Assembly: GCF_004365705.1 (NCBI RefSeq)
Contig: NZ_SOBN01000001.1
Location: 124,001 to 188,000, forward strand
DNA: 64,000 bases
Reading direction: 5' to 3'
Source: Streptomyces sp. 846.5
GTDB taxonomy: Bacteria > Actinomycetota > Actinomycetes > Streptomycetales > Streptomycetaceae
Numbering within the stretch: the stretch's first letter is position 1; every line of letters starts with the position of its first letter. The position numbers and the translations under genes were made by a program. A model generated the notes under the pieces. The model did not search any database. It saw only the letters and a program-made list of their open reading frames with translations, and was not told the origin of the DNA. This document shows, one piece after another, positions 1 to 54,106 of the stretch.

Positions 1-74
1 GCTCGTTGTTCTGGGGATCCTACTGGGTAAAATAGTTATCTCAATACACTTAACGCGATTAGATGTTCGTATTG
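1..74. promoter_or_regulatory. AT-rich control region at left edge, no gene
   Basis: No coding sequence is seen here. The stretch is strikingly AT-rich (for example AAATAGTTATCTCAATA near 16-32) against a very GC-rich background, and its words resemble those in the divergent promoters further right (TTATCTCA also occurs at 29740). It lies downstream of the leftward SDR gene, so by inference it belongs to a further operon of the same island that starts outside the window. Confidence 0.35.
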
Positions 75-839
75 TCAGGCGAACAGGGTTCGGCCACCCT
101 CGAGGACCAGGGTCGCCCCGGTCAGATAGGCCAGGTCGTCGCTGACCAGTGCCGCCACCGCACGCCCGATGTCCGTCTCGGGGTCCCCCAGGCGCCCCAG
201 CGGGATATCGGCCAGCAGTTTGGCGTTCTCCTCCGGCCTGGTCCGCAGGTACGCCTCCGCGGCGGGGCTGAGCGAGAGGGGGCAGATCGCGTTCACGCGG
301 ATGCCGTACGGCCCCCACTCCGTCGCGGCGACCCGGGTGAGTCCGCGGATCGCCTCCTTCGCCATGGCGTACGAGCCGAACCCCCGCTGCCCGTCCAACG
401 CCGCCGAGGAGCCGAAGTTCACGATGCTGCCCCCGCGCTCGCGCAGATGCGGCAGAGCCGCCTGCATGGCGGCCAGCGTTGCCAGCGGGCCGCTGCGGTA
501 GGCGGACTCGACGTCCGCGGGGGATGTCTGCTCCAGTGGACGCTGCACCGAGGACTGGGCGTTGTTCACCAGCACGTCGAGCCCGCCGAACACCCGTACC
601 GTCTCCGCCACCATCCGTTCCACGTCCTCGCGGTCGCCGACGTCCCCGGTCACCGCGAAGGCCCGGCCAGCGCGCCCGCCGACCTCGTCCACCACGGCCT
701 TGAGGGTCGCCTCCGTACGACCGGAGACGACCACCGCCGCGCCCCGGGCGGCCAGTGCCAGGGCGATGCCCCGACCGATTCCCTGGCCGCCTCCGGTGAC
801 CAGGGCCACCTTGCCGGCCAGCCGCGACATGTCATCCAT
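75..839 (-). CDS. short-chain dehydrogenase/reductase (SDR)
   Basis: A 254-residue NAD(P)-dependent SDR of classical length. The cofactor motif TGGGQGIG is at residues 15-22, an NNAQ motif follows in the middle, and the catalytic serine and YxxxK (Tyr157, Lys161) are intact. It probably oxidises or reduces a hydroxyacyl- or ketoacyl-CoA intermediate; the substrate cannot be read from sequence. The start at 839 is chosen because its A is shared with the TGA of the upstream SnoaL-like gene (TGATG coupling); a second ATG lies at 830. It is the last gene of a seven-gene leftward operon beginning at 7018. Confidence 0.9.
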   Translation of the reverse strand: MDDMSRLAGKVALVTGGGQGIGRGIALALAARGAAVVVSGRTEATLKAVVDEVGGRAGRAFAVTGDVGDREDVERMVAETVRVFGGLDVLVNNAQSSVQRPLEQTSPADVESAYRSGPLATLAAMQAALPHLRERGGSIVNFGSSAALDGQRGFGSYAMAKEAIRGLTRVAATEWGPYGIRVNAICPLSLSPAAEAYLRTRPEENAKLLADIPLGRLGDPETDIGRAVAALVSDDLAYLTGATLVLEGGRTLFA

Positions 840-1408
840 CAGGCCCCTCCAGGGTGCAAGGCAGTTCCGCGTGCGTCCGCGTCCGCGTCCGCCCAGAACG
901 GCGCCCAGGTGGGGAAGCCGTCCGGCAGCGACGGCGCCCCGCTGCCCTCCCAGCCGCGGAAGCCGACGGCCTGCGGACGCTCGGTCACATCGGCGGCGTA
1001 CCAGTGCTGTTCGCGGCGACGGGAGAAGTACCACTCGCCATCCAGCCGTACGTAGTCGTCGCGATAGCAGATCGCCATCACCACCCACCGGTCGCCGACC
1101 TCGTGTTCGGCACGGCAGTAGACCGAACCGGTCGCCTGGTCGGCGTCGACGAGTTCCACACGGTGGCCGCAGATCTGGTGGACGGACCGGTGGAACCCGC
1201 GGAGCTGCGGCTCGATGTACCGGCGCAGCGCCTCGCGACCGCTGCCGTGCCGCCCCATGTCCACGTCCGGCCGGAAGCACCCGACCCAGGCGTCCAGATC
1301 ACGCGAGTCGACGGCCAGCGCGTAGCGGATCGGCAACTGCCCGATGGCCTGCCGGGACTCGACGCGGTCGATGCGGTCGGCAAGGTCGGGCCGGGCCTTG
1401 GGGGTCAC
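839..1408 (-). CDS. SnoaL-like / NTF2-fold protein
   Basis: A 189-residue protein with the SnoaL-like (cystatin-like alpha+beta cone) pattern: an N-terminal helix RIDRVESRQAI, a segment AVDSRDLDAWVGCF typical of the family, and a conserved SVHQICGH stretch. Such folds include ketosteroid-isomerase-like isomerases, dehydratases and cyclases, so an isomerase or hydratase role on a ring intermediate is plausible but unproven. The GTG start at 1408 gives a GTGA overlap with the upstream ligase-like gene, and its TGA overlaps the next ATG, so it is translationally coupled on both sides. The C-terminal tail is rich in tryptophan and Asp-Ala repeats. Confidence 0.8.
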   Translation of the reverse strand: MTPKARPDLADRIDRVESRQAIGQLPIRYALAVDSRDLDAWVGCFRPDVDMGRHGSGREALRRYIEPQLRGFHRSVHQICGHRVELVDADQATGSVYCRAEHEVGDRWVVMAICYRDDYVRLDGEWYFSRRREQHWYAADVTERPQAVGFRGWEGSGAPSLPDGFPTWAPFWADADADARGTALHPGGA

Positions 1409-52122: not shown

Positions 52123-53361
52123 ATGTACGACGCACGTCGGCGCAGAAACGCCGCTTTGACCTGTCTCGCAGTGACCGGGGCCCTGCTCGGCGCGGGTTGC
52201 GCCAGCAAGGCCTCCACCAGCACCGCGGCGTCCTCGCTGACCGGCACGCCGGTCAAGGTGATGGTCTGGGATCCGGAGAACACCCAGGGCAGCAGCCAGC
52301 CCGGAGTCCGGTACACGGCCCAGGCGTACGCGGACTGGATCAACAAGAACGGCGGGATCAAGGGAGGCCCGCTGCAACTGGTCACCTGCAACGAGAAGAA
52401 CGACCCCGACGAGGCGGAGAAGTGCGCCCAGGAGGCGGTCAGCGACCACGTGATCGCGGTGGTCGGCTCGTACAGCCTGGCCGGCGACCGGTACATGCCG
52501 ATCCTGCAGAAGGCCGGCATCCCCTACCTCGGCGGGACCGGCGTCTCCGCGGCCGAGTTCTCCAACCCGCTGTCCTTCCCGGTCAACGGCGGAACCCCGG
52601 TCGTCTTCGCCGCGCACGGCCGCCAACTGGTGGAGTCGGGCTGCAAGACCGTCGCGGGCGTGCGCTACGACCTCGCCGCCGCCGCCATCGTCGGGCAGTT
52701 CCTCACGCTCGGCGTCACCTCCGCCGGAGGACCGCCGCCCCTGGACGTGAAGATCCCGGTCAGCGCCACCGACCTGGCCCCCCAGGTCGCCGCGGCGGCC
52801 AAGGGGAACGCCTGCGTGAGCGTCATCCTGGGCACCGCCTCGCAGCTGTTCGTCCAGGCGTACGTCCAGTCCGGCGCCAAGAACAAGCTCGGCAGCGTCG
52901 TCGGCAACCTCACCCCGCAGATCGCCGCCAGTACCGGCGGCAGCAGCAGCCCGCTGGAGGGCGCCGCCATCACCGGCTACTACCCGCCGGTCTCCGACCC
53001 CGCCTGGAAGGACTTCGTCGCGGCCGCCAAGGGCAACAAGAACATCGACACCAGCAGCGGCGCCGAGGAGACCACCTGGGTGGCGTTCAAGGTCTTCACC
53101 GCGGCCGCCGAGAAGCTGCCGCAGATCACCTCCACCGCCCTGGTCCAGGAGCTCAACACCACGACCGGCCTGGACACCGGCGGCCTGACCCCGCCGCTCG
53201 ACTGGCAGCCGTCGAGCGCGCTGGCCATTCCCGGCCTGACCCGCATCCACAACACCACCGCCACCGAACTGACCATCCGTGACGGCCAGGTCGACTGGGC
53301 CAAGCCGGGCTCGACCTTCGTCGACGTCCGGAAGGTGCTGACCGCCAAGCCGGCCGGCTGA
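52123..53361 (+). CDS. Liv-type ABC transporter substrate-binding lipoprotein
   Basis: A 412-residue periplasmic-binding-protein type I, anchored as a lipoprotein: basic start, hydrophobic stretch and lipobox LGAGC (Cys near residue 26). The mature part has VMVWDPENTQG, EKCAQEAVSDHVIAVVGSYSLAG and a GTGVSAAEF segment typical of LivJ/leucine-binding folds. In actinobacteria such proteins also bind aromatic, steroid-like and other carboxylates. It is divergent from the permease fusion and precedes the LivF gene by 22 bp. Confidence 0.92.
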   Translation: MYDARRRRNAALTCLAVTGALLGAGCASKASTSTAASSLTGTPVKVMVWDPENTQGSSQPGVRYTAQAYADWINKNGGIKGGPLQLVTCNEKNDPDEAEKCAQEAVSDHVIAVVGSYSLAGDRYMPILQKAGIPYLGGTGVSAAEFSNPLSFPVNGGTPVVFAAHGRQLVESGCKTVAGVRYDLAAAAIVGQFLTLGVTSAGGPPPLDVKIPVSATDLAPQVAAAAKGNACVSVILGTASQLFVQAYVQSGAKNKLGSVVGNLTPQIAASTGGSSSPLEGAAITGYYPPVSDPAWKDFVAAAKGNKNIDTSSGAEETTWVAFKVFTAAAEKLPQITSTALVQELNTTTGLDTGGLTPPLDWQPSSALAIPGLTRIHNTTATELTIRDGQVDWAKPGSTFVDVRKVLTAKPAG

Positions 53362-53383
53362 TCCGTCCCGAAAGGAGAACCCT

Positions 53384-54106
53384 GTGCCCATCGCAGCGTT
53401 CCAAGGAGCTCCGGCAGCGCCCCTGATCACCACCCGGGGCCTGTCCGCCGGATACGGCCGGCAGCCCGTGGTTCACCAGCTCGACATCGAGGTGCGCCCC
53501 GGCGAGGTGGTCGCGCTGCTCGGCCCCAACGGCGCCGGCAAGAGCACGACGCTGCGGGTACTTGCCGGCGAGCTGGCGCCGATGAGCGGTGAGCTGCTCT
53601 GGCTCGGCGCTCCCAGCCGGGCACCCCTGCACCGGCGTGCCCGCCAGGGTCTCGCGTACGTCGGCGAACGCATGGTCTTCACCCAGCTCGACACCGCGGA
53701 CAACCTTCGCGTCGGCCGGGTGGAGGCGGCACGGGCACTGGAGCTGTTCCCCGAGCTCGAGAAGCGGCTCAGGATCAGCGCGGGGATGCTCTCCGGCGGC
53801 GAGCAGCAGATGCTCTCGCTCGCACGGGCCCTGTCCCGCTCCCCCAGGCTGCTGCTCGCCGACGAGCTCTCGCTCGGCCTCGCCCCGCTGGTGGTCCAGC
53901 GCCTGCTGAGCGCGGTGCGCGCGGCGGCCGACCGCGGCCTGGGGGCGCTGCTGGTCGAACAGCATGTGCGCAAGGTGCTGGACATCGCGGACCGGGTGTA
54001 CGTGCTGCGCCGCGGCCGCGTCGAACTGGTGGGTACTCCACAGGAGTTGCGCCGGAACCTGGGCGCGATCGAGTCGTCCTACCTGGCCGGCGGCGCGGAG
54101 GAGTGA
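53384..54106 (+). CDS. LivF-type ABC transporter ATPase
   Basis: A 240-residue ATPase: Walker A GPNGAGKSTT, signature LSGGEQQ, Walker B LLLADELSLGLAP, and the LivF-type H-loop LLVEQHV. It is the second ATPase of the importer, the first being fused in the 920-residue protein. GTG start with AAAGGAGAA. Its last 28 bp overlap the opposite-strand GH1-like gene, marking the right border of the catabolic island. Confidence 0.93.
   Translation: MPIAAFQGAPAAPLITTRGLSAGYGRQPVVHQLDIEVRPGEVVALLGPNGAGKSTTLRVLAGELAPMSGELLWLGAPSRAPLHRRARQGLAYVGERMVFTQLDTADNLRVGRVEAARALELFPELEKRLRISAGMLSGGEQQMLSLARALSRSPRLLLADELSLGLAPLVVQRLLSAVRAAADRGLGALLVEQHVRKVLDIADRVYVLRRGRVELVGTPQELRRNLGAIESSYLAGGAEE

Follow-up and report, generated by a model that had tools for sequence, protein, structure and literature searches.

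The window, which is the whole stretch of 64,000 nt analysed here (Streptomyces sp. 846.5, GCF_004365705.1, NZ_SOBN01000001.1, positions 124,001-188,000), was found to contain one CoA-thioester catabolic island, which in this soil-type actinobacterium is likely to be a dedicated breakdown pathway for plant-type, labdane-related diterpenoid acids with a C4 carboxyl. Substrates of the ent-kaurane, ent-atisane or ent-beyerane type are favoured, and resin acids may be substrates. The sequence-only reading had proposed a cyclic or isoprenoid acid; the bulky class was right, but the proposal was incomplete, as labdane-related diterpenoid acids can be named through orthologs of PtmA2, PtmU3 and 13 further ptm (platensimycin/platencin) genes. 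No paper assigning the island was found in an open-access library. Orthology, gene set, residue conservation, co-conservation, the operator-like motif and the absences listed below were computed; the substrate, the activities and the order of steps are what we infer.

The island comprised genes 1-54 and extended from nucleotide 75 to 55542. Reciprocal best hits for 52-53 of the 54 genes were present in one cluster, in a different order, in each of six fetched Streptomyces genomes, and island genes were also clustered in G356. Gene 12 was the only gene without a reciprocal match in the six Streptomyces islands. The signed neighbour pairs common to the island and each of the six Streptomyces islands numbered 20-21 of 51-52, whereas shuffled gene order gave a random mean of about 0.5 shared pairs and a maximum of 5 (2000 shuffles per island). 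The right boundary, placed earlier at 54106, was moved to 55542, since the Streptomyces relatives have gene 54 within the cluster. The flanks (124 kb on the left and 40 kb on the right), compared for similarity to window genes only, contained few matches, all below 45% identity. Aldehyde dehydrogenase and serine hydrolase genes were present in 6/6 fetched Streptomyces islands and absent from the window island, as were two more genes, which we take to be DoxX and an 806-aa acyl-CoA synthetase. The absence of these four genes from the window island was counted against the diterpenoid-degradation reading.

Pfam or NCBIfam scans of all 54 genes called in 75-55542 gave a match for every gene except gene 3. 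The scans agreed with the earlier recognition of a CoA-thioester catabolic island and with most of its gene counts. Nine acyl-CoA dehydrogenases were found, namely gene 9 (8108-9265, +), the pair of genes 13-14 (11880-14272, −), genes 21 (20174-21289, +), 22 (21303-22454, −) and 30 (29787-31013, +), the pair of genes 41-42 (38784-41134, −) and gene 50 (48045-49187, +). The best matches of genes 13, 21 and 42 were IpdE2/small-subunit models and those of genes 14, 30 and 41 a large-subunit model, all below the model cut-offs. EtfB and EtfA were genes 19 and 20 (18308-20119, +). The six crotonases were genes 5 (3482-4330, −), 10 (9344-10177, −), 11 (10289-11071, +), 36 (35469-36287, −), 45 (with the MaoC-like gene 46, 43767-45129, +) and 48 (with the SDR gene 49, 46410-47956, −). 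The other six of the seven SDRs were genes 1 (75-839, −), 8 (7104-8012, +), 12 (11095-11859, +), 18 (17226-18134, −), 26 (25685-26428, −) and 32 (32486-33277, −).

Three ligases, genes 4 (2106-3404, −; PaaK-like), 29 (28067-29638, −) and 31 (31038-32486, −; canonical P-loop), were accompanied by two type III CoA-transferases, genes 44 (42486-43682, −) and 47 (45140-46363, +). Besides gene 46, the MaoC-type proteins included the pair of genes 38-39 (37337-38199, −). Hotdog thioesterase-like proteins were encoded by genes 34 (34370-34894, +) and 40 (38281-38787, −), a DUF2889 protein by gene 35 (34876-35472, −), a SnoaL-like protein by gene 2 (839-1408, −) and two GntR/FCD regulators by genes 24 (23564-24391, −) and 37 (36493-37293, +). 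The Liv-type importer (genes 51-53, 49150-54106) consisted of a fused permease-permease-ATPase (−), a binding protein (+) and an ATPase (+). Two luciferase-fold enzymes were found, genes 23 (22539-23567, +; F420-type LLM enzyme) and 33 (33280-34290, −), and an F420 model was passed by gene 23 only. Thiolase-fold proteins had been counted as four; we found five, since gene 7 (5585-7018, −) is an HMG-CoA-synthase-like domain fused to one of the three DUF35 domains; the earlier count of three for DUF35 was correct. The others were the SCP2-type thiolase of gene 6 (4365-5573, −), with Cys, HDCF and GHP motifs, gene 15 (SCP2-thiolase fold with altered catalytic motifs; with its DUF35 gene 16, 14334-15922, −), the classical thiolase of gene 25 (24422-25645, −) and gene 28 (with its DUF35 gene 27, 26452-28001, −). 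Gene 54 (54079-55542, −) had a GH1 fold with Asp at both catalytic Glu places in 8/8 rows, so that the two catalytic Glu of a GH1 glycosidase were lacking.

The substrate class was suggested mainly by kinship with the ptm genes. Gene 29 was found to be an ortholog of PtmA2, the non-adenylating, thioester-forming half of a split ligase (E 3.5e-260), and gene 17 (16072-17154, +) of PtmU3 (E 1.8e-142). The degenerate P-loop of PtmA2 was shared by gene 29 and by 9/9 aligned rows. In the available part of PMC6594144, PtmA1 and PtmA2 are said to divide adenylation from thioester formation, and PtmU3 is described in that of PMC7782822 as a diterpenoid beta-hydroxylase accepting CoA-linked substrates. 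The Streptomyces genome G726 carries a ptm-type cluster, and its PtmA2 aligned over the full length with the crystallised sequence (1192 bits; nearly identical). Of the 43 genes called in this cluster, 15 had a reciprocal ortholog in the island (48-80% identity), with two weaker reciprocal matches (30-31%) left out. These 15 orthologs were distributed across the whole island: genes 1 (72%), 2 (68%), 3 (48%), 4 (63%), 6 (73%), 7 (56%), 17, 18 (67%), 27 (65%), 28 (78%), 29 (69%), 32 (69%), 37 (59%), 50 (80%) and 54 (57%). Gene 3 (1405-2106, −) showed weak profile similarity to adenylate-forming enzymes; gene 4 is a PtmA1 candidate and gene 50 a PtmO4 candidate. In G726, the PtmU3, PtmA2, Ltp and DUF35 genes were contiguous. 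Counted against our main reading were the identities of just 48-59% for genes 3, 7, 17 and 54, the tree of gene 17, which joins the ptm copy to the compact G093 cluster rather than to the island, and the trees of genes 28 and 50, which do not fix the place of the ptm copy.

Genes 17 and 43 (41223-42404, +) are the two PF04909 proteins that had been read as amidohydrolases; the family assignment stood, but for hydrolysis we would substitute dinuclear-metal monooxygenation, which is probably their activity. All seven dinuclear-metal positions were invariant in 24/24 rows for gene 17 and in 37/37 rows for gene 43 (repeated sequences included); the seven are six metal ligands plus the acidic residue that is the mark of a dinuclear site in the available part of PMC7782822. 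The island would thus hold candidate ring-attacking oxygenases. The nearest match of gene 43 was 4dzi, the structure of a protein whose function is unknown. A Rieske ferredoxin partner marks many amidohydrolase-related dinuclear oxygenases (PMC10811679), and no Rieske ferredoxin match was found among the 54 island genes (Pfam/NCBIfam), which was counted against our reading. PtmU3 is said to act without an AibH1-like partner protein, a component distinct from the Rieske ferredoxin. Genes 28/27 showed the features of the Ltp2 type, i.e., thiolase fold, DUF35 partner, the Tyr of the YD motif kept and the nucleophilic thiolase Cys absent, and are a retro-aldolase candidate. Similarity of gene 28 to Ltp2 was weak. 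The second catalytic Tyr of Ltp2 aligned to a Trp, with a Tyr two residues earlier; the Trp at this place was counted against the main reading.

In the proposed pathway, the acid would be imported by the products of genes 51-53 and adenylated by that of gene 4, perhaps with gene 3, and gene 29 would form the CoA thioester, as for PtmA1/PtmA2. Gene 17, like PtmU3, would hydroxylate C5, beta to the thioester, and genes 28/27 would cut C4-C5, so that the opening of ring A would yield a C5 ketone along with a 2-methylacyl-CoA chain. C5 and C4-C5 are also the reaction positions in the ptm pathway. Gene 50 with EtfAB, a hydratase, SDRs 1/18/32 and thiolase 6/7 would release propionyl-CoA, and the C17 keto-acyl-CoA left after this loss would correspond to the end stage of platensimycin/platencin biosynthesis. 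One further round would place the thioester beta to the C5 ketone, and a crotonase or thiolase could therefore open ring B by retro-Claisen cleavage. The remainder would be handled by gene 43, three two-subunit dehydrogenases, genes 15/16 and 25, and the MaoC and LLM enzymes.

Operator-like palindromes of the form AATAG-N5-CTATT, a motif chosen post hoc among many dyads, were found at 29672-29740, where one exact site (29726) and one 9/10 site (29672) separate genes 29 and 30, and a third site at 7056 matched at 9/10. The six Streptomyces stretches contained exactly two sites each, both exact and at matching promoters, i.e., between genes 26 and 30 and ahead of the aldehyde dehydrogenase-gene 29 operon. 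The motif was absent from the ptm stretch, which was counted against the main reading.

The 15 orthologs in common with the ptm-type cluster, and the presence of the islands in genera known for secondary metabolism, could also mean that the island makes a platensimycin-like diterpenoid with cyclases encoded elsewhere. We consider this improbable. In a search limited to class II diterpene cyclases, the ptm query had no match in the genome of Streptomyces sp. 846.5 (control, G726, the genome that supplied the query), terpene synthase matches were found in 0/54 island genes, and EtfAB, the importer, six crotonases and nine acyl-CoA dehydrogenases suit degradation. Weak partial class II cyclase matches (39% over ~105 aa) were present in 7/14 Streptomyces island carriers searched. 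Catabolism is the better reading, given the lack of a class II cyclase match in the genome of Streptomyces sp. 846.5 and the addition of EtfAB, the importer and 39 genes without ptm counterparts.

A slightly stronger but still unlikely alternative is another bulky isoprenoid or alicyclic acid (a triterpenoid, a steroid fragment or a sesquiterpenoid acid), with the diterpenoid likeness arising only since ptm borrowed related enzymes. Ptm ties exist for only 15/54 genes, and related partial clusters with different gene sets in Rhodococcus, Mycobacterium, Frankia and Sphingobium replicons indicate that the module functions in different contexts. However, identity to G726 reached 69% for gene 29 and 78-80% for genes 28 and 50, the shared set runs from activation through the first round of beta-oxidation, and own-genome paralogs of the 15 ptm-linked genes were at most 43% identical at the sampled loci. 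A steroid side-chain cluster with ring-degrading genes elsewhere in the genome is very improbable: two-subunit dehydrogenases, a MaoC pair, Ltp-DUF35 pairs and the weak Ltp2 similarity are shared, but ptm orthology points elsewhere and KshA_C had no match in the own genome. Among the 15 genomes searched, which included no known steroid degrader, KshA_C matched in four, all Streptomyces island carriers, and the HsaC-like dioxygenase model reached its cut-off in none (best own-genome match weak, E 5.5e-17). This search, which covered the KshA_C and HsaC-like models, agreed with the earlier statement that this is not a standard steroid cluster.

Returning to diterpenoid-acid breakdown, the chances are about even that actinobacteria possess a complete route in which neither P450 nor Rieske ring oxygenases take part. 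CoA esters would be oxygenated by dinuclear enzymes of the amidohydrolase fold, the rings would be opened by retro-aldol and retro-Claisen reactions, and platensimycin/platencin would have arisen when diterpene cyclases captured the first third of a pathway of this kind. If true, one of the larger conserved Streptomyces catabolic islands of unknown function would gain a substrate, genes 28/27, whose counterparts are contiguous with PtmU3 and PtmA2, would supply a candidate for ring A opening in platensimycin/platencin biosynthesis, and an antibiotic pathway would have been built from a degradation pathway. Two predicted dinuclear oxygenases would join a family of which few members have been characterised, and plant diterpenoid carbon in soil would have a non-dit route of turnover.

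Like the dit resin-acid cluster of Pseudomonas and Paraburkholderia, the island is a large cluster for a proposed labdane-related diterpenoid acid. The available parts of PMC13063091 and PMC10710418 describe for dit the P450 DitQ, the ring dioxygenase DitA and the putative ring-cleavage DitC, whereas no P450, Rieske dioxygenase or ring-cleavage dioxygenase match was found among the 54 island genes (Pfam/NCBIfam), as the sequence-only reading had noted for the dioxygenases. Actinobacterial steroid side-chain degradation (ChsE, ChsH1-ChsH2, Ltp2) has in common the dehydrogenase pairs, a DUF35-bound thiolase-fold aldolase and, as proposed here, a tertiary beta-hydroxy alpha-methyl acyl-CoA substrate; the differences are that no KshA or HsaC match over the cut-off was found here and that in our model the bond cut would belong to a ring instead of a side chain. 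The dinuclear oxygenases PtmU3, AibH2 and SfbO share the seven metal-site positions with genes 17 and 43, the island differing in having no Rieske partner. As in PhlABC and the archaeal thiolase/HMGCS/DUF35 complexes, thiolase gene 6 adjoins gene 7, whereas the HMGCS-like and DUF35 parts form one protein in the island; the catalytic Cys is apparently lost in gene 7 and, by the same alignment, in PhlA. The ptm/ptn clusters share PtmA2 with a PaaK-like ligase, PtmU3, the Ltp-DUF35 pair, an acyl-CoA dehydrogenase, SDRs, SnoaL, thiolase with the HMGCS-DUF35 protein, GntR and the GH1-fold protein. A class II cyclase is present in ptm (Pfam) and not in the island, as are what we take to be FabF, aminobenzoate, dxs and ispG genes, whereas 39 genes of the island, including EtfAB and the importer, have no ptm ortholog.

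The source genome (9.03 Mb, five contigs) gave 61 called genes in the window (C1:124001–188000). Each of genes 1–54 (75–55542), the island proposed for labdane-related diterpenoid acids, was searched for Pfam or NCBIfam families. The gene census of the sequence-only reading was mostly borne out, except that five thiolase-fold proteins were found instead of four; among its F420/LLM enzymes, gene 33 was found to be luciferase-fold, without a match to an F420 model. That reading ended the island at 54106, whereas it was found to extend through gene 54, to 55542. A flank search (124 kb to the left and 40 kb to the right), made by similarity to window genes only and without a family scan, returned few matches, all below 45% identity. 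The empty-site test found GAPDH (gene 55), the neighbour on the right, in 12 of the 13 genus relatives, with different surroundings in the three that were fetched; the left neighbour had a copy above the limit in only one of the 13. A nitrate/taurine-type importer (binding protein, permease and ATPase, by sequence reading) was present outside the island at 58554–61447. The same genome contained a second region (L019 and L020, C1:3450001–3490000) with Ltp, DUF35, acyl-CoA dehydrogenase and PF04909 genes, which showed at most 44% identity to the island.

The closest solved relatives of two island proteins belong to the platensimycin/platencin (ptm) cluster. The best solved relative of gene 29 was PtmA2 (E 3.5e-260), with a degenerate P-loop common to both, and that of gene 17 was PtmU3 (E 1.8e-142). 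The ptm-type cluster was located in the Streptomyces genome G726, whose PtmA2 aligned with the crystallised protein across all 522 residues (1192 bits, few differences); no second gene 29 homolog was found in G726 at the limit used for the 392-Streptomyces search. The G726 locus contained 43 called genes from the FabF-like gene to the gene 54 ortholog, of which 15 were reciprocal orthologs of genes 1, 2, 3, 4, 6, 7, 17, 18, 27, 28, 29, 32, 37, 50, and 54, at 48–80% identity. Two further reciprocal hits, to genes 31 and 47, showed 30–31% identity and were left out of the 15. Of the non-orthologous genes in this interval, only the class II cyclase was family-tested; others were named by sequence reading, and we take them to be FabF, aminobenzoate genes, dxs, ispG, and UbiA. 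The reaction details of PtmU3, PtmA2, and PtmO4 are treated as general background.

The metal-site residues of AibH2 and PtmU3 are given in PMC7782822. The D-x-H, H, E, D-x-x-H-x-E set was intact in genes 17 and 43, the second PF04909 protein, in 24/24 and 37/37 aligned rows, respectively, repeated sequences included. In Ltp2 and Sal the YD-motif tyrosine is described as the base (PMC12329534); the Ltp2-like gene 28 retained this tyrosine, lacked the thiolase cysteine and aligned a tryptophan opposite the second Ltp2 tyrosine. The thiolase motifs were retained in gene 6, whereas gene 15 retained the N-terminal cysteine and not the HDCF and GHP motifs. Gene 7 (5585–7018), adjoining the thiolase gene 6, was found to contain an HMG-CoA-synthase-like domain fused to DUF35; it was similar to PhlA and archaeal HMG-CoA synthase, with a valine aligned opposite the synthase cysteine. 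The gene 6-7 pair was also found on its own in other genomes (L025–L034). Gene 3 (1405–2106) had no Pfam match, and in profile comparison it weakly resembled segments of adenylate-forming enzymes; in the clusters of Streptomyces, ptm, Rhodococcus, and Mycobacterium alike, it adjoined gene 4, which is PaaK-like.

Several other functions were considered for the island. The sequence-only reading had noted gene types that are hallmarks of steroid degradation, and the lack of its ring-opening genes; a steroid cluster was rejected, with no KshA_C match in the window's own genome and no HsaC-like dioxygenase match above the model cut-off in any of 15 genomes. KshA_C-type Rieske genes were present on the same contigs as islands in two other genomes (G053:C16:26944 and G042:C45:297205), that of G053 about 17 kb from the island. 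An aromatic or lignan substrate, hinted at by the PaaK-like ligase and the plasmid relatives, was dropped on the PtmU3 and PtmA2 matches. Gene 54 (54079–55542), of the GH1 fold, hinted at a glycoside; this was dropped because both catalytic glutamates were replaced by aspartate in 8/8 rows and the protein is common to the island and the ptm cluster.

A biosynthetic role was also weighed. No terpene synthase match was found among the 54 island genes in the Pfam/NCBIfam scan. The G726 class II cyclase, used as query in a genome-wide search confined to that cyclase class, had no match in the window's genome; 7 of the 14 Streptomyces searched besides G726 gave partial matches that were weak (39% identity across some 105 residues) and look like squalene-hopene cyclases. 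We favour a catabolic island, because EtfAB, an importer and many beta-oxidation enzymes are present. No literature on the island itself was found in open-access papers, which is weak evidence limited to that scope. The literature base comprised PMC10811679, PMC10401708, PMC10847714, PMC7782822, PMC6006322, PMC13063091, PMC10710418, PMC12329534, PMC10391625, PMC12141560, and PMC6594144.

With gene 43 as query, one-genome-per-species contigs yielded 31 loci (28 in Streptomyces and one each in Pseudofrankia, Frankia, and Kitasatospora), 24 of which contained at least nine island genes at ≥55% identity within about 21 kb. Five island genes apiece were found among other genes in L053 and L054, and only adjacent homologs of genes 17 and 43 in L057 (8620–11179; Streptomyces GESEQ-4) and L058 (GESEQ-35). 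In six Streptomyces, 53 of the 54 genes had reciprocal best hits within 60–95 kb (52 in S. canus, whose stretch begins inside the island), gene 12 being the exception. The gene order was altered in these six, yet 20–21 signed neighbour pairs were retained against about 0.5 expected. Gene 35 (34876–35472), a DUF2889 protein, was retained in all six islands. Kitasatospora arboriphila contained 22 island genes with reciprocal hits inside 57 kb, with 1/21 neighbour pairs in common, not above chance. At E 1e-140, gene 28 was found in 7 of 394 genomes of the class and in 1 of 14 of the window's genus, namely the window's own; of 392 Streptomyces, 18 had a gene 29 homolog (83–87% identity in 17 of them, 70% in G726). 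The island is therefore sporadic, and within the genus it was seen only in its own genome among the 14 searched.

A sugar-type ABC importer and a DeoR-like regulator (by sequence reading) were inserted in eight Streptomyces islands (L036, L039, L041, L044, L053, L054, L061, and L062), six of which also contained a GH4-like protein, similarly read. A compact related cluster was found in the genome G093, and partial relatives on plasmids of Rhodococcus, Mycobacterium, and others. That of Rhodococcus jostii RHA1 pRHL2 (L108) contained homologs of genes 3, 4, 13, 17/43-type, the importer and a serine hydrolase, and was broken by an IS256 transposase adjoining a short P450 fragment.

A dyad count over the intergenic DNA of the window and the six Streptomyces islands placed ATAG-N5-CTAT among the top words in all of them. 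Each Streptomyces 100-kb stretch contained exactly two AATAG-N5-CTATT sites, one preceding genes 26|30 and the other preceding the aldehyde dehydrogenase-gene 29 operon; because the six Streptomyces are related, they do not count as six independent finds. Of three sites in the window, one, between genes 29 and 30, was exact, and those at 29672 and 7056 matched at 9/10 positions; the ptm stretch had none. Gene 24, part of the gene 29 operon in Streptomyces and without a counterpart in ptm, is the likelier candidate regulator.

The relation to ptm was examined in quick trees with SH-aLRT support only. The midpoint-rooted gene 29 tree joined ptm and the island (98 SH-aLRT), nested in Frankia, Mycobacterium, and Rhodococcus copies, and was the only one to set ptm next to the island within other clusters. 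The gene 28 and 50 trees placed ptm without clear support either way, whereas the gene 17 tree joined ptm with G093 (98 SH-aLRT), counter to the gene 29 tree. From these mixed trees, it appears plausible, not settled, that the antibiotic cluster captured catabolic genes. Few ligases were seen in the G726 interval, and we infer that the PaaK-like gene 4 is a PtmA1 candidate; gene 50 is a PtmO4 candidate because a reference title calls PtmO4 an acyl-CoA dehydrogenase. In PMC10847714, the ptm machinery is described as working on kauranol, atiserene, and beyerene scaffolds, and such action on several scaffolds would suit a catabolic ancestry with broad substrates.
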